A stretch of DNA of 64,000 bases. It comes from a bacterium (GTDB lineage Bacteria > Vulcanimicrobiota > Vulcanimicrobiia > Vulcanimicrobiales > Vulcanimicrobiaceae). The translations under genes and the position numbers were made by a program. Location of the stretch: the NCBI GenBank assembly GCA_021805775.1, contig JAJZED010000006.1, positions 1 to 64,000 of the forward strand. The letters run 5' to 3'. Of the stretch, positions 116-10,810 are shown in pieces. Position 1 is the stretch's first letter. The number at the start of each line of letters is the position of its first letter. The notes beneath the pieces are model-generated. The model made no database searches. It was not told the DNA's origin and saw only the letters and a program-made list of their open reading frames with translations.

Positions 116-276
116 GCCTCAACGTGGTGCGGCAAAACGGCATCGTGGGGGTTTGCGGCTCCTGCATGGATGCGCGCGGGATGACCGATGAACATTTGGT
201 CGAAGGGACGCACCGCAGTTCGATGGACGAGCTGCGCGACTGGAGCAAACTGGCCGATAAAGTGCTGGTATTCTGA
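116..276 (+). pseudogene. DsrE-family protein, C-terminal remnant cut by an insertion sequence
   Basis: The last 50 or so codons read as the end of a DsrE/DsrF-like protein, with a GVCGSCMDARGM segment holding the conserved cysteines and a DELRDWSKLADKVLVF tail typical of the family. DsrE-like proteins are small sulfur-carrier or sulfur-relay proteins. The N-terminal half is missing: the reading frame upstream of about 116 runs into insertion-sequence DNA and does not resemble the family. A TTG at 67 is open to the stop but would add only IS-derived residues. The gene ends three bases before the flavoprotein at 279, so the two were probably co-transcribed, consistent with a shared sulfur role. 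It is probably inactive now. Confidence 0.6.
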
Positions 277-278
277 AC

Positions 279-1436
279 GTGTCGCATACGGCAATTATTC
301 TCGGTGCCGGCATTGGCGGCATCGCGACTGCGAACGAGTTGCGAAGACGATGCAGTCGAGACGACCGGATTATCGTCGTCGATCGAACGGCGACGCACGT
401 CTTCGCCCCCTCGCTTCTGTGGGTTGCCGTCGGCACGCGACGCCCCGATCAAATTCAGCGTCCAGTCCGTCGGCTGCTCCACCCGGGAATCGAATTTGTC
501 GAGGGCACCGTCGAACATATCGACCCAAGCGCGCGCGCGGTGACGATTAACGGAAAACGGCTCGTGGGGGACGCATTGGTTATCGCGCTTGGTGCCGAAC
601 TGATGCCCGAAACCATTCCGCGGCTTTCGCGGATCGGTCACAATTTCTATACATTAGTCGGCGCGCAACGGCTTCGTGAGGATCTCGACATCTTCGAAGG
701 CGGCGATGTCGTCGTCCTCACCGTCGACCCCATGTATAAATGCCCCGCCGCACCGTACGAGGCAGCGCTCCTGATCGACGATTATCTCCGCAAGCGTGGT
801 GTGCGAACGCAATCCACGATCACAATAATCGCCGCAGAGGCCGCTCCGATGGGCGTTGCCGGCCCCGCAGTCTCCGATGCAGTGAAAGGCATGCTTGCCG
901 ACCGGAGGATCGCCTATACACCCAACACTCGGGTCGTGTCGGTAGACCCGACCGCTCGTTTGCTCGCCTTCTCCGACGGCACCTCCGCTTCGTTCGACTT
1001 GCTCGCCTTCGTACCGCCGCATCGCGCACCAGAAGCAGTTGCCGATTCCGAACTCGGCGGAGACACGGGCTGGATTCCCGTCGATCGCGCCACACTCGAA
1101 ACGAAATTCGACTCGGTCTATGCAATCGGCGACATCGCAACGATTCCGCTCTCGATCGGAAAGCCGCTTCCAAAGGCCGGCGTGTTCGCCGACGCGCAAG
1201 CGCACGTTGTTGCAAGCAATATTGCCGCCCTTTGGAACCAACAATCCCCCACCGCGACGTTCGACGGCCACGGAGCGTGCTTCCTTGAAGTTGGGCGCGG
1301 CAGGGCGGCACTCGGCAGCGGCAATTTTTACGGAGAACCGAGACCGGTGGTCGCGCTCAAGCCGCCGTCGTTCTTGTTGCATTTTGCAAAGGTTATCTTC
1401 GAGAGGCGCTGGCTGAAGCGCCCGCCGTTTGGATAG
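279..1436 (+). CDS. Sulfide:quinone oxidoreductase-like FAD flavoprotein
   Basis: A 385-residue member of the FAD/NAD(P) disulfide-reductase superfamily, closest by motif to sulfide:quinone oxidoreductases. An N-terminal dinucleotide fold (GAGIGG, residues 9-14), a MYKCPAAPYE segment with Cys155, a YAIGDIA flavin motif and LPKAGVFADAQA near the C-terminus are visible. Only three cysteines occur, about residues 25, 155 and 334; Cys155 and Cys334 are candidates for the redox pair. SQRs sit on the membrane surface and pass electrons from sulfide to quinone. The GTG start follows the DsrE remnant by two bases, which supports a sulfur-oxidation context. The substrate could instead be another sulfur compound. 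Confidence 0.75.
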   Translation: MSHTAIILGAGIGGIATANELRRRCSRDDRIIVVDRTATHVFAPSLLWVAVGTRRPDQIQRPVRRLLHPGIEFVEGTVEHIDPSARAVTINGKRLVGDALVIALGAELMPETIPRLSRIGHNFYTLVGAQRLREDLDIFEGGDVVVLTVDPMYKCPAAPYEAALLIDDYLRKRGVRTQSTITIIAAEAAPMGVAGPAVSDAVKGMLADRRIAYTPNTRVVSVDPTARLLAFSDGTSASFDLLAFVPPHRAPEAVADSELGGDTGWIPVDRATLETKFDSVYAIGDIATIPLSIGKPLPKAGVFADAQAHVVASNIAALWNQQSPTATFDGHGACFLEVGRGRAALGSGNFYGEPRPVVALKPPSFLLHFAKVIFERRWLKRPPFG

Positions 1437-1524
1437 ACCGACTTTCTCGACCGAGGGCGCCCATAAACCAACGGGGTGGCCCTCCAACGAGGATCGACGC
1501 CGAATAGGCAGAATCGAAAAGCCC

Positions 1525-2901
1525 ATGTCTTCCGGCCCAACGGCGCTCTTTAAGGCCTCCCGATTTAACGCGATGCGATTCGTAGGCGGCTCTCTGTTCC
1601 TTGCCAACAGTTTTACCGGGGCCGTCGTTGGGTTTGACAGCGAGGAAATGGCGTCTACTCGGCGTTTGCTTCGCGGCACCGTATCCAGTGAGGAGTTTTC
1701 TCCACTCGCGCAGGCTCTGGTCGAGAACGGATTCTTAGTGCCCGCCGATCGCGACGAGATGCGCGGCGTTGACAATCTGCACGATACCCTAAACGACGCG
1801 CGATCGTTCGAACTGGTGTTGCTGCCGACCGAGGCATGCAATTTTCGTTGTACGTACTGCTACGAATCCTTTCTCCGCGGGGAGATGCCCGATGCCGTGG
1901 TCGCCAACGTGATCGCCCTCGTCGATCGCCTGCTCCCTCGCATCGAAACCTTGCACATCGCATGGTTTGGCGGCGAACCGTTACTAGCGTTTCCCACCAT
2001 GCGCGCGATCGGCGACCAGGTTCAGGCGGCGTGCGCTGCCTGGGGCGTAGCTCTTCGCACGAGTATTACAACGAACGGTGCCCTGCTTGACGACGAGAAG
2101 CTCGCATTCCTGGAGCGCACGGCCTGCAGCCATTACCAAGTTACGCTCGACGGTGTTGAGTCTGCGCACGATCGGACGCGGCCGGCGAGCGATGGTGGCG
2201 CAACCTATGCGACCGTTTGGGCAGGCCTCCGGCGACTGAAAGCCTCGACCTACGAACACCGAGTCGTCGTGCGGGTCAACGTGCATCTGGGGAACCTGGC
2301 CTCCGTCGAAGAGCTGGTGGAACGCTTTGCAGCGGAATTCGGAAACGACGATCGGTTCACGCTCGATTTTCACACCGTCTGGGATGGGCCCGCGTCCCGG
2401 GCGAGCGGCCTGGAGCAGATTCCCGACCGCGAAAGTACGTTGGAACGATTACGAAATGCCGCAGTGGCGCGCACGCAGCGAGACTGTCTCGGGTTTTCGG
2501 CATTCGGCGCGGGCGCACGCTATTGTTATTCAGCCCGACGCAATTCGCTGGTCATCGGTGCGGATGGAACCCTCTACAAATGCACCCTAGCATTTCACGA
2601 TTCGCGCAATCATGTCGGAAAGTTGAATGCAGGCGGTGTTACCGAAATCGACGCAGCGAAGTTCGCTCTATGGACCGAACACTCCGACTATCGATCAGAC
2701 GAGCTCTGCGGAAGTTGCTTTTTTGTCCCGACGTGTGTCGGCGCCTTTTGCCCTTTTACGCGCATCTCAGAGGGAAGTCGTGCCTGCCCGCCGGAAAAGG
2801 AGAACTTGGAATTGACGTTTCGAACAGCATGTGCCATCGGAACCTCAGAAGATGCGGTTCGACCGAGCACCACTTGCGCCGAGGGAGGGTCTACAAAATG
2901 A
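1525..2901 (+). CDS. Radical SAM/SPASM peptide-maturase-like enzyme
   Basis: A 458-residue protein taken from the ATG at 1525; the frame stays open back to 1429, but that part would overlap the upstream gene and lacks family features. The first 90 or so residues form the small N-terminal domain seen in many peptide-modifying radical SAM enzymes. Then comes the CNFRCTYC cluster motif for the SAM-binding [4Fe-4S]. The C-terminal half has a SPASM-type cysteine array (YCYSARR, LYKCTL, CGSCFFVPTCVGAFCPF, ACPPEK) for auxiliary clusters. Such enzymes usually install cross-links or oxidations on ribosomal peptides. Its stop overlaps a 35-codon ORF. The substrate is unknown. Confidence 0.85.
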   Translation: MSSGPTALFKASRFNAMRFVGGSLFLANSFTGAVVGFDSEEMASTRRLLRGTVSSEEFSPLAQALVENGFLVPADRDEMRGVDNLHDTLNDARSFELVLLPTEACNFRCTYCYESFLRGEMPDAVVANVIALVDRLLPRIETLHIAWFGGEPLLAFPTMRAIGDQVQAACAAWGVALRTSITTNGALLDDEKLAFLERTACSHYQVTLDGVESAHDRTRPASDGGATYATVWAGLRRLKASTYEHRVVVRVNVHLGNLASVEELVERFAAEFGNDDRFTLDFHTVWDGPASRASGLEQIPDRESTLERLRNAAVARTQRDCLGFSAFGAGARYCYSARRNSLVIGADGTLYKCTLAFHDSRNHVGKLNAGGVTEIDAAKFALWTEHSDYRSDELCGSCFFVPTCVGAFCPFTRISEGSRACPPEKENLELTFRTACAIGTSEDAVRPSTTCAEGGSTK

Positions 2902-3005
2902 TTATTATAAAACCGGCAATTCTCCGGGTCGAGGATGCAACCACGATACTCCCGCCGGTGCCGGTGAAACGGTCGCCGTATGCGCGACGCACCTCGATGC
3001 AATAG
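2898..3005 (+). CDS. Small peptide overlapping the radical SAM gene (candidate substrate)
   Basis: A 35-codon ORF whose ATG overlaps the maturase stop in an ATGA junction, so it should be translationally coupled. The peptide starts MIIIKPAILRVEDATTILPP and ends in a basic stretch with SPYARRTSMQ. It has no cysteine and one tyrosine. Position and codon use suggest a real product, perhaps a ribosomally made peptide modified by the neighbour, but no known precursor motif is recognised. The remaining gap to 3205 holds no other gene I can support; one long overlapping frame through it is probably chance in stop-poor DNA. Confidence 0.35.
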   Translation: MIIIKPAILRVEDATTILPPVPVKRSPYARRTSMQ

Positions 3006-3205
3006 CGCCAGGAACGAGTATCGAGGAAGCCTCACCGGCCGCCGTTCTTGCGAAGCCCCTAAAATGCAATGGGAAATGCTCCTCGGCGGCTGGAATAGCG
3101 CGGGCAAAGGGAGAATCCCGGCAAGCGAAAATCCTGCCGCCTATCTCTACCTTAACGAGCGTTGCGCGATCGGGCGTGGCACTCTATCGAAACGGAAGAG
3201 GGAAG

Positions 3206-3622
3206 ATGCGCACCGTACTCGTCGCGACCCTTATCGGCCTAATCTCTTCGCCGGCAATCGCCGCACCGCTCGATCCGTGCAGGCTACTCACAAATGCGCA
3301 AGTCGCCAGCGCCCTTGGTGAGCGCTCGGTTCCCGGAGAGCGACAGCCGAGCGCTCCCGGTCAGCCTACGTGCGGATGGAAGGCTGGCTCGAAGACGTTG
3401 TATGTCATGCTCGCATCGCACAAGACGATGCCGCCTCCGTGGTGGAAGAGCGCGGTGGTCGTGCGTGGCGTCGGAGATTCGGCGCTCTGGTCGGGCGGCT
3501 GGATGTATGTAAGAAAGGGCTCGCACCGCGTTGCGATCGAGTTGCTCATCTCTCCGAGCAGCGTGACGCGCATGGATCCCCAGTTGGTGAAACTTGCGAA
3601 AGAAATCGCCGCACGCATGTAA
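3206..3622 (+). CDS. Exported small protein, DUF3558-like
   Basis: A 138-residue protein with a clear signal peptide (MRTVLVATLIGLISSPAIAA) followed by DPCRLLTNAQVASALG. A second cysteine lies in PTCGWK and a KGSHRVAIELL strand near the end. The layout of an early Cys with a short helix, then a second Cys and strands, resembles DUF3558-type exported proteins. The same layout and a similar C-terminal segment occur in the protein at 25295-25783, so the two are probably paralogues. The ATG at 3206 was chosen because it begins the signal peptide. Its TAA overlaps the next gene's ATG by one base. Function unknown. Confidence 0.7.
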   Translation: MRTVLVATLIGLISSPAIAAPLDPCRLLTNAQVASALGERSVPGERQPSAPGQPTCGWKAGSKTLYVMLASHKTMPPPWWKSAVVVRGVGDSALWSGGWMYVRKGSHRVAIELLISPSSVTRMDPQLVKLAKEIAARM

Positions 3623-5397
3623 TGAACTTCATCATTGCGGTCCGAACATCAGCTGCCGCCGCGCTCTTCGCGCTGGCAATCCTACCATTGAGCGCGCGTG
3701 CAGCGAGCCGCACGCATGTGTACATGCTGCAAGGCGGGGCAATTATCGTTCGCGCGGTCGCACCGAACGGGCAAGTAGCGCGTGAAAGCACGCGCGTACC
3801 GACGATTGCTGCGGGCGGAATACTCGATGCGCTCGCGGCCACTCCGAGCGGCCGCTTTCTATACGTCGAGGGATGCATCGACAAACCGTTTGGAATACTG
3901 AAACGTACCGAGGCGATCGCCGCATACGATATCAGCGAGCCGTCCGGCATCCCGCGCCCGATCGGCTCGCCGGTGTCGATGGGTGGATGTTTTGAAGATG
4001 CCCTGCCGCAGACGCTCGTCATCGATGTGGGCGGGCGCTACCTTTTTTCGGCCGGCGGTTTTTCAATGGCGAGTATGCGCAGTTATGCAGCAGCGGCCTC
4101 TGAGTCGTCTACCTTGTTTGCGTTTCGGATCGGGGAAGACGGCCACCTAATGCAAGTTGCGTCACTCGACATACCGGGGATGCCCGTCGGGGCGCGCCTT
4201 GCGCTCGATGCTTCCGGGCGTTGGCTTTCCTATGTAGGTCCGCAGTTTCTAGATCGAGGAAAATATGTGCCCGCCGTTACCGAGGTAGCCGTTCAGGCCG
4301 GGGGCGCGCTCGTACCGGCGAAGGCCACGCCTCTTTTTGGTGCGGTGGAGATCGGTGCGCTGCGCAGCAATCCTCGCGTACCGGCAACGCTCTACATCGG
4401 CGTCGATGGAGTGAGGTCGGAAAGATTGGTCGCGTATAGGATCGGTGTCGGCGGTGCACTATCGCCTCCGCTATTCGCGTATTTAGGTGCCTCGTCGCGG
4501 ATCGCCGTAAACCGCAACGGCACGTCCCTATTTGCGATGGGCATGTGCCGATACCCGAGACGGCAATTCAACTGCACCGAAGACGACGTTGCAGAGTTTG
4601 CAATCGAGCGTAGCGGTGTGCCGCACCCGACTTCGGCAGTCAAGCCGCCCGTTCTCACTGCAGATCTCGTCCTGCAACCACCATACCGCTACCTCTACGC
4701 AACCGAGGCCCGAGCAGGTTTTCGCGGTACTTCGATTATCGGAGCAGCGACCGTCGTCGGCCCGCCCCAACGGCTAGGCGGATCGCTGTGTTTGGGCCCC
4801 GAGGGCCCGTCCCCAGGGGGTGACCTGTACGGTCCCGCCGACATGGTAGGCGTCGACCCGAGAGAGATCGTCAGGGTCGTTCCTGCGAACGGGTCGCGCA
4901 CTTCGTCGAAAAGTATCGGGGAGATCCAGTTTTCCTCTCCCGACTTTCCATGGAGATTTTCCCCTGACCCGGCGAGCGGGATACCGTGGGTCGCATTGGC
5001 CATCCTCAAGACTTCGGAATTTACGATCGCTCACGTACGCGGGTCACCCTTATCGGCTATTCGCGTCACGAATGCCTCCGATCTGCCTAATGTTGACGAC
5101 TTAGCGCCGTTTTCCGGTTATGAGACGAGCGAGACCGGGGCGGTTCAACGCGTGCTTGGGCCGCCATCGGCCTCCGCGCTGGCGCCCTTTCAAAGTGCTT
5201 CGAACAGCGTTTGGTCCTGGGTCGATGGGCCGAGGGCGCTCGAACCGGATACAGCGTACGATGCCTTCCTCATTCCAACATTTTGTGTCGGCTGGGAGGC
5301 CGGCCTCGGGGAACCGATTGCGCGTTCCAAGAGGATGACTGCGGGAGCCGTGGTAGTGCCGTATTACTATAGTTTCGGCTTTACAACGTTGCCGTAG
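3622..5397 (+). CDS. Exported beta-propeller-like protein
   Basis: A 591-residue protein with a signal peptide (residues 1-27, ending in ARAAS). The mature part has repeated blocks of the type 'LAATPSGRFLYV', 'VIDVGGRYLFSAGG', 'LALDASGRWLSYVG' and 'IAVNRNGTSLFAMG', spaced about 60-90 residues apart. These are typical blades of a YVTN/lactonase-type beta-propeller. No catalytic residues can be assigned. Its start overlaps the stop of the exported protein before it (TAATG), so the two are co-translated. No terminator is visible in the 90 bases before the mobile element at 5488. Confidence 0.6.
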   Translation: MNFIIAVRTSAAAALFALAILPLSARAASRTHVYMLQGGAIIVRAVAPNGQVARESTRVPTIAAGGILDALAATPSGRFLYVEGCIDKPFGILKRTEAIAAYDISEPSGIPRPIGSPVSMGGCFEDALPQTLVIDVGGRYLFSAGGFSMASMRSYAAAASESSTLFAFRIGEDGHLMQVASLDIPGMPVGARLALDASGRWLSYVGPQFLDRGKYVPAVTEVAVQAGGALVPAKATPLFGAVEIGALRSNPRVPATLYIGVDGVRSERLVAYRIGVGGALSPPLFAYLGASSRIAVNRNGTSLFAMGMCRYPRRQFNCTEDDVAEFAIERSGVPHPTSAVKPPVLTADLVLQPPYRYLYATEARAGFRGTSIIGAATVVGPPQRLGGSLCLGPEGPSPGGDLYGPADMVGVDPREIVRVVPANGSRTSSKSIGEIQFSSPDFPWRFSPDPASGIPWVALAILKTSEFTIAHVRGSPLSAIRVTNASDLPNVDDLAPFSGYETSETGAVQRVLGPPSASALAPFQSASNSVWSWVDGPRALEPDTAYDAFLIPTFCVGWEAGLGEPIARSKRMTAGAVVVPYYYSFGFTTLP

Positions 5398-5497
5398 CGG
5401 GGATTTCTTACCGATGCGCCGCGCAGGCCTCTCCTAAGGCAACGGCGATCCCCTACCCTCAAGCGCCGCGTCGTCGTTCGCACGGCGTGTGGGTTTG

Positions 5498-5534
5498 CGA
5501 ATAAAATGAGACGCGCTCGAAATTAGTGAGACGC
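5498..5534. repeat. Subterminal direct repeats, left end of the IS21-like element
   Basis: Two 17-base copies lie 20 bases apart: CGAATAAAATGAGACGC (5498-5514) and CGAAATTAGTGAGACGC (5518-5534), identical at 13 positions. They are the likely transposase-binding repeats next to the terminal inverted repeat. Confidence 0.65.
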
Positions 5535-5775
5535 GGAACTTGGGCTGACGGTGCGCTTGGTCGGGGCGATTTTGGAATCCCAGATGAGGTCGCTACCCTT
5601 CGTGCTCCTTAACATCGGCAGCCCGCAGCTCGTGGATGACGCAATCCGACTTCGAGCGGCGAGGCCACTCAACCAGGAGAACGGCGACCGAGGGTCGAGA
5701 ATCGGCCTTCGGAGGGCGATTTTTCACGGCCGTTTTGGCTGCCGTTAACGCTTCGAACCCAGGAGGGAATGTGAC

Positions 5776-6189
5776 GTGAAAGCCGATGGCATCGTGCTAG
5801 AGCCGGTGCGCGCAATCTTGCGCGTGGAATCGCTGCTGCTCCTCGGATTACTTATTGCATTCTACTGGTGGATGCACGCGAACTTGATCGTGTTCGTTAT
5901 CCTGCTACTCGCTCCAGATATAGCAATGCTAGGGTATCTGCGCAACACTCAGTTCGGCGCATTCTGCTACAACGTCTTTCACACTCTCACTGCGCCGTTC
6001 GCGCTCGGTGTCGCAGCATTGATCATACACCCGATTGCCCCTTTCGCGATCATCTGGGCCGCTCACATCGCTATGGACAGAACCCTTGGGTATGGCCTCA
6101 AGTACTCCGATTCATTCGCCCACACGCACCTGGGGTTTATTGGAAAGCGATCAAAAGACGTCGATGCTCTACAAAATGGGGAGGGTTAG
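5776..6189 (+). CDS. DUF4260-family membrane protein
   Basis: A 137-residue protein with three or four hydrophobic segments (about residues 18-33, 34-52, 66-88 and 88-100). The pattern LLAPDIAMLGYLRN, YNVFHTLTAPF, AHIAMDRTLGYGLKY and THLGFIG is characteristic of DUF4260, a small membrane family of unknown function. GTG at 5776 is chosen because a perfect AGGAGGG ribosome site (5761-5767) sits eight bases upstream. The gene is the only cargo inside the element at 5488-6356, so it was probably moved as a passenger. It may confer a stress or resistance trait, but nothing here shows which. Confidence 0.8.
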   Translation: MKADGIVLEPVRAILRVESLLLLGLLIAFYWWMHANLIVFVILLLAPDIAMLGYLRNTQFGAFCYNVFHTLTAPFALGVAALIIHPIAPFAIIWAAHIAMDRTLGYGLKYSDSFAHTHLGFIGKRSKDVDALQNGEG

Positions 6190-6221
6190 ACCTTGAAGGC
6201 TTCGTCGGGGCGATTGGGATT

Positions 6222-6350
6222 GCGTCTCACCTATTGAGCAAGAGCATGCCGGGCTTCTCACCTATTTCGTAAAAGTGTCTCATTCTATTTCCAAAACTCG
6301 GCATAGCGCTCGCTGAGCCAAGCATAGTCCGGTCTCAGTTATTTCGCAAA
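6222..6350. repeat. Subterminal repeats, right end of the IS21-like element
   Basis: Copies of a (G/C)(T/A)TCTCAccTATTtcg-like motif occur near 6224-6235, 6254-6269, 6275-6290 and 6331-6346, in the orientation opposite to the left-end repeats. The last runs into the terminal inverted repeat. Together they give the multi-repeat architecture of IS21-type ends. Confidence 0.6.
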
Positions 6351-6543
6351 CCCACACGGCGCATCGGCGATGAGGGAGTTGCCCGAGGCAACGGTCTGGT
6401 ACTGCGCCGGTCTATGGGTGGGATGTGCTTTTGCACCTCGGCGCCGCAGCGGTTGCGTGGTTCGCCGGTTACGGCCGGCTCTCGGTCGAACCGCTTCCCG
6501 CGCTCCCGTAACCATCGCGTATCGCATCAACTTTGCGCGTCGC

Positions 6544-6582
6544 TTGACTTCTCGTCTCCTTGGCATATATGCTTACGTATAT
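6544..6582 (+). promoter_or_regulatory. Promoter and possible operator of the toxin-antitoxin pair
   Basis: TTGACT (6544-6549) is followed after 16 bases by TATATG (6566-6571), or after 18 by TATGCT. The ATG at 6585 is so close that the mRNA would be nearly or fully leaderless. TATATGC-TTA-CGTATATA (6566-6582) is an imperfect palindrome over the -10 region, a plausible binding site for the antitoxin in autoregulation. Confidence 0.5.
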
Positions 6583-6584
6583 AC

Positions 6585-6821
6585 ATGAATGAGACGAAAA
6601 TCGCTCGCTATGGGAATAGTCTCACGGTGAGGTTGCCCGCCGCGCTCGCTCGCGACGTCGGTTTCCGCGAAGGGGACCGGGTTCAGATTCGTCGGATGGC
6701 AATGGGCATCGCGATCGAACGGCCGCTTCGCGCCCGACTTGAGGAACGGCTTGCGACCGTCCGCGACCGGGAAACCGAGCTCTCCTCCGGAGCGGCGGTA
6801 GGCGCCGAGCTCGTCGATTGA
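6585..6821 (+). CDS. mazE: MazE-like antitoxin (AbrB/SpoVT fold)
   Basis: A 78-residue protein whose first 45 residues match the AbrB-type swapped-hairpin DNA-binding domain: KIARYGNSLTVRLPAALARDVGFREGDRVQIRR. The variable C-terminal tail would bind and neutralise the toxin. It starts at the ATG directly behind a strong promoter. The stop overlaps the toxin's TTG start by four bases (TTGA), the usual coupling for such pairs. It should repress its own promoter with the toxin as co-repressor. Confidence 0.85.
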   Translation: MNETKIARYGNSLTVRLPAALARDVGFREGDRVQIRRMAMGIAIERPLRARLEERLATVRDRETELSSGAAVGAELVD

Positions 6822-7147
6822 GCGTACCGGATCGCGGCGATATCGTCGTCTTGGATTTCGATCCGCAAGCAGGACACGAGCAGATGAAACGCCGCCCCGC
6901 GCTCGTGCTCTCGCCTGCATCATTCAACCGGGTTTTCGGCTTGGCATTTGTTGCACCGGTGACAAGCATGCCGAAAGGGCATGCTTTCGAAATTGCGCTA
7001 CCCCAAGATTGTGGAGCAGCGGGCTCCGTGATGATGCATCAGCTGAAATCGCTGGATTGGAGAGCGCGACGGGCAAGAAAAATGGGGAGCGTTCCCGATG
7101 AGCTGCTCGAGGCGGCGGCCGAGATCGTCAGGGAAATTGTTTCGTAG
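6818..7147 (+). CDS. mazF: MazF/PemK-like endoribonuclease toxin
   Basis: A 109-residue protein with the MazF/PemK fold: RGDIVVLDFDPQAGHEQMKRRPALVLSP at the N-terminus (conserved GDIVxxDFxPxxGxEqxxxRPalVlS), FVAPVTSMPKG in the middle, and an SVMMHQLKSLDW strand carrying the usual D/S-LDW signature. These toxins cut mRNA at short sequences and stop growth when the labile antitoxin is lost. The TTG start is chosen because it gives the TTGA overlap with mazE and begins just before the conserved RGDIV. Confidence 0.88.
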   Translation: MSVPDRGDIVVLDFDPQAGHEQMKRRPALVLSPASFNRVFGLAFVAPVTSMPKGHAFEIALPQDCGAAGSVMMHQLKSLDWRARRARKMGSVPDELLEAAAEIVREIVS

Positions 7148-7164
7148 CGTCGATCCACGAGCGG

Positions 7165-8502
7165 CTACGCGCGCAGCGGAGGCGCGTGCAACCAGCTGCC
7201 GGTACGCAGCTTCCATTCCGTCAGCGCAGCACGCGCGATCCAGGCGATAATCCACGCGAACGGCACCGAAAAGAGGCCGTAGTGGAAGCGCTCGATCCCG
7301 AGCCATGCAAGCGGAATCACTAAGGCGTTACAAAAAATCCCGATGCTCATCGAAAATGCCGTGTCGCCCGAAGCGCGTATCGGTGCCAAGGAGACCTGCG
7401 CGATTCCTTTGAGCGGCAGCGTCACCATATGGAGTGCGAGGGGCAGCGCAGCCATCGAAGCGACCGTCGCGTCGAGCGTAAAAAGGAACGCGAGCGGCCA
7501 CGCGAAGAGCGCGACGAGAGCGCCGGCGAGCGTTGAAAAGGCAAGCCCGATGCGGCGTGCGCTTGCGACAAATCGCTGCGCGCCGAGGAAATCGCCCGCT
7601 CCGAGTCGCTGGCCGACGACGATCTGCGTCGTGCTCTGCATTGGGCTGGGCACGACGAAGGTTGCATCGGAGACGATCGTGAGCGCGCGAAAGCCCGAGA
7701 TAGCGAGCGCCCCCAGCGGCGCGAGCATGGTGACGATCGCGACGTCGGGCAAAATGAGCGTGACGAGAAAGACCGATTCGGGCAACCCGAGCATCGCCGT
7801 GCGAACGGCGAGGCGAAGGTCGGCGTCGAGGCGCGAGAATATGCGGTATTGCGGCCGCCGAGCGACATAATAGACCGCGAAGATCGCGCCGATGCTCTCG
7901 GCGAGCAGTGACGATATTCCGATGCCGACGATGCCGAGCGGGTGGTGCGTGAACCAGCCGAGCCCGAGAATCAGTAACAACGGGACGTGCACGATGTTGA
8001 TCGTTGCCAGCACGGCAATGCCGAGCTTGCGGTTTCCCGCCGCTCCGAGCGAGCCGATCAGCGTTCCGTCGATCGCCATGGGGATCAATGCCGCGCAACG
8101 AAGCACGAGATAGATCGCCGCATCGTGCAGGCTCGCAAGGTCGCCGATCATGCCGTGTAAAACGCGGTGCCCGAAGAGCGCGGCTGCGAGCGTTGCGAGG
8201 AGGGCAAAGAGCATGGGAATCGGCATCCCCGCGCGTACCGCGCGCCCGTATCCCTCGAGATCGTTCGCGCCGATCCGTTGCGCGGTGATGATGCTCGTTC
8301 CCGTCCAGAGCCCCGCCATCGCAAAGATCAGCACGAGTTGCAACGTGATCGCCGCCGTCGCACCGGCGAGCGCGACGACGCCGAGCGAGCCGATCGCGAT
8401 CGTATCGACGATGCCTAATAATTGGTCGCCGAGCATCTGCGCGGCAAAAGGCATCGAATAACGCCGGAGCGCCGCGCCGACGTCGGTATGGTCGACGATC
8501 AT
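7165..8502 (-). CDS. MATE-family multidrug/metabolite exporter
   Basis: A 445-residue integral membrane protein with about 12 hydrophobic helices and the two-fold repeat of MATE transporters. The N-terminus reads MIVDHTDVGAALRRYSMPFA; blocks such as PFAAQMLGDQLLGIVDTIAIG and FRALTIVSDATFVVPSPMQSTTQIVVGQ are typical. It would export a cationic or aromatic compound in exchange for H+ or Na+. It is the last gene of the minus-strand operon, seven bases after kynureninase, so export of a tryptophan-breakdown product is a reasonable inference. The start at 8502 is chosen because upstream residues would overlap kynureninase and look unstructured. Confidence 0.88.
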   Translation of the reverse strand: MIVDHTDVGAALRRYSMPFAAQMLGDQLLGIVDTIAIGSLGVVALAGATAAITLQLVLIFAMAGLWTGTSIITAQRIGANDLEGYGRAVRAGMPIPMLFALLATLAAALFGHRVLHGMIGDLASLHDAAIYLVLRCAALIPMAIDGTLIGSLGAAGNRKLGIAVLATINIVHVPLLLILGLGWFTHHPLGIVGIGISSLLAESIGAIFAVYYVARRPQYRIFSRLDADLRLAVRTAMLGLPESVFLVTLILPDVAIVTMLAPLGALAISGFRALTIVSDATFVVPSPMQSTTQIVVGQRLGAGDFLGAQRFVASARRIGLAFSTLAGALVALFAWPLAFLFTLDATVASMAALPLALHMVTLPLKGIAQVSLAPIRASGDTAFSMSIGIFCNALVIPLAWLGIERFHYGLFSVPFAWIIAWIARAALTEWKLRTGSWLHAPPLRA

Positions 8503-8509
8503 TCCGGCG

Positions 8510-9670
8510 CTATTCCGGCAATTTCGAGCGGATCGCGTCGAGTTCGTCGAAGAAGCGGTCGATTTCTTCGTCGGCGGTGTAGAAGTGCGGGCTGACGCGA
8601 AGGCCGCAGCCGGGGCGATAATCGAGAAAGACGCGGCGTGCAATCAACTCGTGATACGCACGTTCGGAACCAGCGAAATCGATACCGATCCACCCGGTCC
8701 GCTTCGCCGGATCGAGCGGCGTATTGACGCGAAGGCCGCGAGCGAGCGCCTCTTCGGCGATGCGCGTGGTGAGGCGAATATTGTGTTCGCGGATGCGGCG
8801 GATGCCGACCTCGGCGATCGCGGCATGCCCCGGCTGCGCTACCAGATATCCGGGGATCGTCGGAGTGCCATGCCCGAAACGGTACATCGAGCGTGCATAT
8901 TCGATCGGCGCCGCCTCGAACGAAAACGGTCGCTCGTGCGCCATCCAACCGGTTACTGCCGGTCGCAAGCGCTCCAACAATGCCGGGCGTACGTAGATCC
9001 AACCGCAGCCGGGGCCGCCGCAGAGCCATTTGTGGCTGCCGCCGGTGACGATATCGAGATCGAGCGCGCGAACGTCGTAGGGAACCACGCCGGTTGTCTG
9101 GTAGGCGTCGACGCAGAGCAGGGCCCCGACCTCCCGGCAGCGCGCCTGAATCGATGCGATGTCGGCGAGTGCTCCCGAGACGTAGTAGGCGTGCGAGATC
9201 ACCGCAAGTGCCGTGCGTTCGGTGATCGCCGCGCAGATGCGCTCGGTCGGGATCGTTCGTCCGTCGTCGGAGGGCACGACCTTCGTGCGCGCGCCGTAGC
9301 GCTCCCATTCTTTCCAAACGTAGGTAAGCGAAGGGAACTGCAGCGCTTCGTAGAGCACTTCGTTGCGCTCGCCGTGAAAATCGATCGCCGTAGCGAGCGC
9401 CGCCTGAAGAACCGAGACGTTCGGGCCGAGAAACGTGCTTCCCGGAACGGCGCCGACGAGCGTGCCGATGCCGTCGGCGATCTCGCCGATGCGCGGCAGC
9501 CAGCGAACCCACGCCTCGGGGCCGTCGGCGATCCACTCATCCATGTAGCGTTCGAGCGCGTCGCGTGCCGCGACCGGGGCGGCGCCCATCGAATGGCTCA
9601 CCAGATAGGTCGAGCGCTCCAACGTCGGAAAGCGTTCGCGCAACAGCGGCGCGGAGATCGTCTCAGCCAT
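8510..9670 (-). CDS. kynU: Kynureninase-like PLP enzyme (class V aminotransferase fold)
   Basis: A 386-residue fold-type I PLP enzyme. The lysine in GGSHKWLCGGPG (Lys214) is the expected cofactor anchor, preceded by the aspartate in LLCVDAYQTTG. Kynureninase cleaves kynurenine to anthranilate and alanine. The assignment rests on the class V fold plus direct coupling to tryptophan dioxygenase: the start ATG overlaps the dioxygenase stop by eight bases and a GGAAGTGAG ribosome site lies upstream. A related cysteine desulfurase or isopenicillin-epimerase-like role cannot be excluded by motif alone. Confidence 0.75.
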   Translation of the reverse strand: MAETISAPLLRERFPTLERSTYLVSHSMGAAPVAARDALERYMDEWIADGPEAWVRWLPRIGEIADGIGTLVGAVPGSTFLGPNVSVLQAALATAIDFHGERNEVLYEALQFPSLTYVWKEWERYGARTKVVPSDDGRTIPTERICAAITERTALAVISHAYYVSGALADIASIQARCREVGALLCVDAYQTTGVVPYDVRALDLDIVTGGSHKWLCGGPGCGWIYVRPALLERLRPAVTGWMAHERPFSFEAAPIEYARSMYRFGHGTPTIPGYLVAQPGHAAIAEVGIRRIREHNIRLTTRIAEEALARGLRVNTPLDPAKRTGWIGIDFAGSERAYHELIARRVFLDYRPGCGLRVSPHFYTADEEIDRFFDELDAIRSKLPE

Positions 9671-10439
9671 AGTTCTCACTTCCTAAATACGTGCGAACCT
9701 CCCAGAGTTCGGGAAAGATGCGTTTCTCTAGGGTCGTCTGCAGGTAACCGACGCCCGAGGATCCCCCGGTCCCCCGCTTGTGGCCGATCATCCGTTCGAC
9801 CATTCGCACGTGGCGGCCGCGCCAAAGCAAGAGACGTTCGTCGAACTCGATGCAGTCTTCGAGGAGAAGATAGAGCGCGGCATAGGTTCGCTCGTCGGTA
9901 TAGATCTTCTGATACGCGGCGATCGTTTCGTCGTGAGAGCCGCACGGAAAGCCCGCCCGGGCGAGGAACTGCGCGAGATGCGCGGGCAACGAAGGCGCGT
10001 GCATGCGTGCCATCAGGCGTTCGCGTTGCTCGGGCGTCAAGACCAAATGCTCGAAGAGGCGTTCGTCGCGCAGGCCGCAGAAAAACTCAAGCTCGCGAAA
10101 CTGCTGCGACTGAAATCCGCTCGCCGGGTTGAGGTGCTCGCGAAAACGATTGAACTCTTGCGGAGTCATCGTCTCGAGAATATCGACCTGCTCCCCAAGC
10201 ACGCGCTGAATGGCGTGGACTCGCCTGAATATCTTCCCCATGCGCATGAGATCGTCGGCATCGCAGGCGACGGCGAACTCGTCGAGCTCGTGCAAGAGCT
10301 GTTTGAACCAGAGTTCGTAAACTTGATGGATGACGATGAAGAGCAACTCGTCGTGATGGGCCGGCTGCGAGAGCGGTTTTTGCAGAGCGAGCAGTTCCTC
10401 GACTTTGAGATACGAGCCGTAGGTTAAGCGTTCGCTCAT
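9663..10439 (-). CDS. kynA: Tryptophan 2,3-dioxygenase
   Basis: A 258-residue haem dioxygenase opening with LTYGSYLKVEELLALQKPLS, then HDELLFIVIHQVYELWFKQLLHEL, which forms the substrate side of the haem pocket. RHVRMVERMIGHKRGTGGSSGVGYL supplies the haem-ligand histidine region and the glycine-rich substrate loop. It converts L-tryptophan to N-formylkynurenine. The length is slightly below the usual 270-290, but all diagnostic blocks are there. It overlaps the upstream DUF962 gene by ATGA and the downstream kynureninase by eight bases. No formamidase gene is in the operon. Confidence 0.93.
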   Translation of the reverse strand: MSERLTYGSYLKVEELLALQKPLSQPAHHDELLFIVIHQVYELWFKQLLHELDEFAVACDADDLMRMGKIFRRVHAIQRVLGEQVDILETMTPQEFNRFREHLNPASGFQSQQFRELEFFCGLRDERLFEHLVLTPEQRERLMARMHAPSLPAHLAQFLARAGFPCGSHDETIAAYQKIYTDERTYAALYLLLEDCIEFDERLLLWRGRHVRMVERMIGHKRGTGGSSGVGYLQTTLEKRIFPELWEVRTYLGSENYG

Positions 10440-10759
10440 CGGTGCGCGGCGAGCCCGAGCCGTTCGTACTCTGCGTCGATACTTCCGGCGAGTACGTGGT
10501 AGGCCATCCGGTAATCGGCGGCGAGAGAACGAAAGGGCGCGCGAAAAGTCTCCGGCTTATTGCGCTCGATGAGCGCATGCGAGAGCCAGGCAGGGCCGTA
10601 GCCCGCTACGACGCCGGCAAGTGCGAGCCAGGGATCGCGACGGATCGCTGCGGTCACGAGCAAGGTCGTCGCCGCAATCGTCCCGGCCGCGTGCATGGCG
10701 CGGGTGCGCGGGTTGCTATGGGCCGCCAGATAACGCGGCCAAAATTCCTCGTCGCTCAT
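10436..10759 (-). CDS. DUF962/Mpo1-like small membrane protein
   Basis: A 107-residue protein starting MSDEEFWPRYLAAHSNPRTR. HSNPRTRAMHAAGT, a hydrophobic pair of helices, GYGPAWLSHALIERNKPETF and PFRSLAADYRM match the DUF962 (YGL010w/Mpo1-like) family. Yeast Mpo1 is an Fe(II)-dependent dioxygenase acting on 2-hydroxy fatty acids, and the conserved histidines H14, H24 and the H in LSHALIE fit metal binding. It is the first gene of the operon leading to tryptophan dioxygenase, joined by ATGA. Its role in tryptophan breakdown, if any, is unknown. Confidence 0.8.
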   Translation of the reverse strand: MSDEEFWPRYLAAHSNPRTRAMHAAGTIAATTLLVTAAIRRDPWLALAGVVAGYGPAWLSHALIERNKPETFRAPFRSLAADYRMAYHVLAGSIDAEYERLGLAAHR

Positions 10760-10810
10760 AGCGTTCGGTTTTACGGGGGTCGAACGGGTTTCCCTCGAAA
10801 AGGGCGCGAC

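Follow-up and report, generated by a model that had tools for sequence, protein, structure and literature searches.

How could a gene enclosed by transposon ends have moved when no transposase is encoded between these ends? The question is raised by a locus in the genome of an uncultured bacterium of the phylum Eremiobacterota, which lies in a stretch of 64,000 nucleotides (the window, to which all positions refer unless another locus is named). The unit in question occupies positions 5488-6356 (869 bp), and the span 5483-6361 given in the preliminary description is exactly the unit with both target duplications counted in. Read directly, the left junction is TTCGCA-CGGCG followed by TGTGGGTTTGCGAATAAAATGAGAC and the right junction is GTCTCAGTTATTTCGCAAACCCACA followed by CGGCG-CATCGG. 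The left terminal inverted repeat (5488-5512, plus strand) is thus TGTGGGTTTGCGAATAAAATGAGAC and contains a first site, L1 (5494-5512); the right one, TGTGGGTTTGCGAAATAACTGAGAC (6332-6356, minus strand), contains the site R1 (6332-6350). The outermost 14 bases of the unit form perfect terminal inverted repeats, and the 30-nt arms at 5483-5512 and 6332-6361, which include the flanking pentamers, are 87% complementary. Both direct reading and an inverted-repeat scan place perfect copies of the 5-bp target duplication CGGCG on either side, at 5483-5487 and 6357-6361. The ends, the duplication and the site arrays described below support the earlier claim of a complete transposed unit, which contains a DUF4260 gene as cargo and is free of transposase. 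The perfect duplication around the present unit indicates that both ends moved as a pair; it leaves undecided whether the gene was then inside.

Could such an arrangement have arisen by chance, as an inverted repeat that happens to enclose an ordinary gene? Among the perfect 14-bp inverted repeats spaced 0.3-4 kb apart in the 64-kb window, the pair bounding the unit is the only one with an identical flanking 5-mer, and none of 30 shuffled controls gave this combination. The 25-mer end pattern matches only the two ends of the unit when up to 3 mismatches are allowed, with 0.02 matches expected. Moreover, the ends contain further copies of the terminal sites. The inner sites were searched for with the two terminal sites as sole queries and a threshold of at least 13 identities in 19 positions, and since only the terminal copies served as queries the search is not circular. 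It found four inward-pointing inner sites, where shuffled sequences contained 0.24 on average and none of 500 shuffles reached four: L2 (CGCTCGAAATTAGTGAGAC, 5514-5532, plus strand, 13/19), R2 (TTTGGAAATAGAATGAGAC, 6277-6295, minus strand, 16/19), R3 (TTTACGAAATAGGTGAGAA, 6255-6273, minus strand, 15/19) and R4 (CTTGCTCAATAGGTGAGAC, 6224-6242, minus strand, 14/19). Counting the terminal ones, the unit has six oriented sites of about 19 bp, two on the left and four on the right. A count of the inward-pointing word TGAGA[AC] within about 150 bp of the ends gave 4 occurrences against 0.115 expected (0/1000 shuffles). The subterminal GTCTCA repeats noticed at the outset are hence real as oriented sites, albeit the word itself is a portion of the 19-bp sites and is replaced by TTCTCA in R3. 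A chance origin, for which the absence of other copies and nothing more would speak, is of negligible probability, as the 14-bp repeats, the 5-bp duplication and the four extra sites are jointly far outside the shuffles and an independent element in Azospirillum, discussed below, has the end in the same register.

What does the unit carry? Its passenger gene (5776-6189, plus strand, GTG start) encodes a 137-residue protein predicted to be a helical membrane protein and belonging to DUF4260 (PF14079, 121.4 bits against a gathering score of 27). A ribosome-binding site, AGGAGG, was read directly 9 nt 5' of the start codon (5761-5766, plus strand), and both the cargo and its own ribosome site are as originally described. 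A sigma-70-type promoter match was not found within the unit. When the protein is aligned with three relatives, P47-D48, Y65-N66, F68-H69, H97, D101-R102, G105-K109 (GYGLK) and T117-H118 are among the invariant residues, a pattern that suggests a metal site within a small, helical membrane protein. An AlphaFold2 model of the protein is helical with a mean pLDDT of 71; no fold or sequence match of weight was found in the PDB, and the protein is not among the PADLOC defence proteins. DUF4260 has a patchy distribution, being found in 4 of 98 related genomes of the phylum and on 19 of 72,556 plasmids; none was found in phages. The relatives examined, among them a 62%-identical one in locus L017, are stand-alone genes without these ends. 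On staphylococcal plasmids, which also carry DUF4260 genes, one example (L151, 3992-4828) adjoins a VraH-family gene. The proposal that DUF4260 confers a transferable benefit found no measured support: the gene is patchy and on some plasmids, and the relatives examined lie outside such units.

If the unit was transposed, where is the enzyme? As first described, the unit has no istA or istB: neither an open reading frame nor a remnant of these genes or of another transposase was found when its six frames were compared with the 99 ORFs of at least 200 residues from the IS21 loci of the phylum. The best match in this comparison (E 0.012 over 23 residues) is at chance level. No IstA scored above the cut-off in the host genome, a metagenome-assembled genome of 95.9% completeness in 28 contigs, and since it is in 28 contigs an insertion sequence collapsed at a contig break could escape detection. 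A helper candidate in this genome (L014) gave only a 30-bit match and its ORF proved to be of IS3 type. IstA was above the cut-off in 29 of 149 genomes of the phylum, the congener G008 among them. The unit is single-copy, as no further copy was found in the host genome or in 98 relatives, and a search of the 149 phylum genomes for the ends with up to 3 mismatches returned only the unit's own two (0 mismatches), all else being on a par with the reversed control. Matches to six end patterns were obtained in IMG/VR; those inspected had neither a partner end nor site arrays. A full istA/istB element with the ends of the unit was not found in the host genome, the 149 phylum genomes, IMG/VR or plasmids. 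Thus, of the expectations attached to the preliminary description, neither a helper IS21 in the genome above the cut-off nor another copy of the unit materialized. The single copy, the lack of a helper in the genome and the lack of a second copy in the phylum are what one would expect of a dead relic, that is, of an IS21-type element that lost istA and istB by deletion, with the DUF4260 gene between the ends by chance and never moved as a cassette. We consider such a relic unlikely, given the complete ends, the perfect 5-bp duplication, the intact gene and the absence of a transposase remnant.

The surroundings of the unit bear on its history. The closest genome, G008, shares 97% identity from position 6832 onward, whereas 2.2 kb of different DNA take the place of positions 122-6831. 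This stretch encodes a FAD/NAD oxidoreductase, a radical SAM protein, a 675-residue ORF without Pfam match and MazE, in addition to the unit. Its genes have a GC3 of 0.62-0.67 as compared to 0.78 from 7165 on. Three further congeners have a DUF4383 gene, MazE, MazF and a MATE gene in this order. Of the DUF4383 membrane-protein gene, which is intact in these congeners, only the last 35 or so codons are left in the window (6404-6511), and this remnant joins DNA that is absent from those congeners and within which the unit lies; the right flank is conserved in them only from 6404 on and the left flank is absent. The replacement in G008, the DNA missing from the congeners and the lower GC3 together indicate that the unit lies in a variable, probably imported stretch, in other words probably a genomic island spanning 122-6831. 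An empty CGGCG site, which had been anticipated in relatives, was not found in any genome searched, and a search of the phylum with the joined flanks gave only short GC-rich chance matches. The insertion is therefore argued from the ends and the duplication and not from an empty allele. Two further observations were made in this region. Positions 1-121, which begin with the contig, agree with G008:C65 (L117, 9474-9594) in all 121 bases, as compared to 97% identity in the rest of the shared DNA, which is either a repeat or an effect of assembly overlap. The radical SAM protein (1429-2901) matches the PADLOC prokaryotic viperin profiles weakly (42 bits), probably merely through the common radical-SAM domain.

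Which kind of transposase could have recognized these ends? IS21 loci were collected at 20 places across the phylum, and the eight with clear ends (L086-L088, L093, L095-L097 and L102) are full elements with duplications of 5-6 bp. Their ends, exemplified by TGTTAGCGCCGGACCAAAACTGACCCACTT...GAAAATTGACCCACC of L088, TGTCGGTGACGGTATAAAAATCCCCACTTC of L097 and TGGTAACGCTCGCGAAAAAATGAACCC of L096, start with TG and a first block, followed by an A/T run, in most of them a TGA-type block near position 21 and more copies further inward. The end of the unit, TGTGGGTTTGCGAATAAAATGAGACGCG, has the same order of blocks, with TGA at position 20, another site 20 bp further inward and a 5-bp duplication; it differs from all elements examined in the recognition word, the second conserved block, which is TGAGACGC as compared to TGACCCAC and the like. 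Since the recognition words differ, it is unlikely that the helper is any of the phylum IS21 elements examined. The same layout is found further afield. Each end of IS5376 holds at least two direct repeats 23 bp apart, and each repeat has two conserved GC-rich blocks separated by about 10 AT-rich base pairs; the element generates 5-bp duplications, and two complete repeats are required by its IstA (PMC10122671). The unit likewise shows the family trait of TG...CA ends with several oriented sites of about 20 bp per end, the site being present at least twice at either end and its blocks having an AT-rich spacer, and its 5-bp duplication CGGCG falls within the 4-8 bp of the family. As this layout is shared with the IS21 elements of the phylum and with IS5376, we speak of IS21-type ends. 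In contrast to IS21 elements, the unit is only 869 bp long, carries a passenger gene and encodes neither IstA nor IstB, and because istA and istB are absent it is not classed as a member of the family. The initial designation as IS21-like therefore stands for the architecture of the ends, as judged against the eight phylum elements; its other half, an istA/istB element with the same recognition sequence, was not found.

Could the ends come from a different branch of the same enzyme superfamily? In Tn7 the ends are of the TGTGGG type and differ in their number of sites, and the target duplication measures 5 bp. The TGTGGG ends, the 5-bp duplication and the two left and four right sites of the unit fit this description, so that the unit might be a mini-Tn7-like cassette, with ends derived from a Tn7/Tn5053-like relative that uses a TnsB/TniA-type transposase and a TnsC/TniB ATPase. 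The complexes of IstA, TnsB and MuA are moreover alike in architecture (PMC10122671), which makes such an origin conceivable. A close match in layout is nevertheless provided by IS21 elements of the same phylum, and we regard a Tn7-like origin as possible but not likely. The Mu-transpos_C profile (PF09299) matched nothing in 10 genomes of the genus, but as the control gave no match either, this does not speak for absence.

A single relative of the end was found outside the phylum, on the Azospirillum argentinense plasmid NZ_CP007794.1 (element L123, 6001-8506). Its end TGTGGGTTTGCGCATAAACTGAGA is identical in 22 of 24 positions, its first base corresponding to base 1 of the unit, with an E of 7 by itself. 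An inverted partner end, TGTCGGTTTGCGCATAAATTGAGAATGACACCCCATAAGATGAGAACCGACACTCCATAAGCTGAGAA, lies 2.5 kb away, so that an element with a site array like that of the unit is delimited. Since the register is shared and a partner end is present, this element is in our judgement a real relative of the end. Like the unit it has several subterminal TGAGA sites and lacks IstA and IstB; unlike the unit it shows no target duplication, contains VPA1267-like frames and has no DUF4260 gene. The element itself is an unannotated 2.5-kb inverted-repeat element with CATAAnnTGAGAA site arrays and two VPA1267-like frames; it has no recognisable recombinase of its own and is interrupted by an insertion sequence with a DDE_Tnp_1 transposase. 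Relatives of its right end in A. brasilense are decayed fragments only, and the Azospirillum-type end was not found in E. coli genomes.

On rhizobial plasmids, homologues of the VPA1267-like proteins share an operon with two tyrosine recombinases; on plasmids of Providencia, Vibrio and E. coli they are neighbours of gmtX of gamma-mobile-trio elements. Together with the missing target duplication in the sole relative of the end, this company could mean that a tyrosine-recombinase element, be it gamma-mobile-trio or Tn554-like, uses the ends as its recombination sites and that the CGGCG pair is not a transposition duplication. On account of this company trio loci were tested for the ends of the unit, and all nine (L142-L150) lacked them, the best agreement being 14-17/25 as compared to 22/25 in Azospirillum, so that a gamma-mobile-trio origin was dropped. 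In addition, neither the unit nor the Azospirillum element contains a remnant of a tyrosine recombinase, and gamma-mobile-trio proteins did not match the six frames of the unit. Tyrosine recombination is consequently a highly improbable source of these ends. The rhizobial operon is conserved in L142, L143, L144 and L145 (about 2400-10800) and encodes, next to the two tyrosine recombinases and the VPA1267-like protein, proteins of 786 and 150 residues and a RecD2-like helicase; it is apparently the alphaproteobacterial counterpart of gamma-mobile-trio elements.

How, then, could the unit have reached its site? The explanation that we hold to be probable, by analogy to IS21 and by a modest degree only, is that it represents a mobile insertion cassette, non-autonomous and with IS21-type ends, which was placed by an IstA-like DDE transposase provided in trans. 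Two ends, each with several putative transposase-binding sites, would enclose the one passenger gene, DUF4260. A transposase of this kind, presumably together with an IstB-like ATPase, would have come from another element, bound the TTTGCGAAATAnnTGAGAC sites and then paired both ends. It would have cut after the terminal CA, and joining to the target with a stagger of 5 bp would have left CGGCG on each side. The class of the enzyme rests on analogy, because no autonomous element with the end of the unit was found anywhere searched, and we infer this class, the action in trans and the present stranding of the unit unless a matching helper arrives.

A 17-nt direct repeat raises the question of how the gene came between the ends. 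Its left copy (5555-5571, plus strand) and its right copy (6199-6215, plus strand, 16/17) bracket the cargo at the inner borders of both end zones. No core shuffle out of 200 reached 16/17, yet this level was attained in 3 of 70 stretches elsewhere in the window. The repeat, if real, may be a trace of gene entry between the ends. It could be imagined that the unit is a modular platform, an IS21-type MITE of about 225 bp (a 67-bp left zone, one 17-bp repeat and a 141-bp right zone) that acquires gene modules through recombination at its 17-bp repeat and is moved by an IS21 helper located elsewhere. This we consider quite improbable; if true, it would allow varied cargo on one set of ends.

What sets this unit apart from known systems, and what could be learned from it? 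Mobile insertion cassettes such as MIC231 of Bacillus cereus are described as ends of IS231 (IS4 family) around a passenger without transposase, with mobility that depends on a transposase in trans (cited in PMC2266710 and PMC3281130). The unit has the features of such a cassette, with IS-type ends flanking a passenger and no transposase. Passenger-only cassettes are therefore already known, and what is new, as far as the literature searched goes, are IS21-type ends on one; that no paper on such a cassette was found is weak evidence, the search having covered an open-access subset. Cassettes of this kind are a quiet way for single genes to gain the mobility of transposons, and annotation based on transposases misses them. 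IS21 has one of the best-understood pairs of transposase and ATPase, and a natural IS21-type cassette would be an endogenous donor for asking which number and spacings of sites an IstA-type enzyme requires. The present unit, in its one copy, adds a case from an uncultured phylum. MITEs are similar to it in being short and non-autonomous; they consist of ends only, whereas the unit has an intact gene and is single-copy. The closest known kind are cassettes of the MIC231 type, with which the unit shares transposon ends that enclose a passenger and the absence of a transposase, and from which it differs in that MIC231 has IS231 ends with IS231 helpers on record, whereas the unit has IS21-type ends with arrays of sites.
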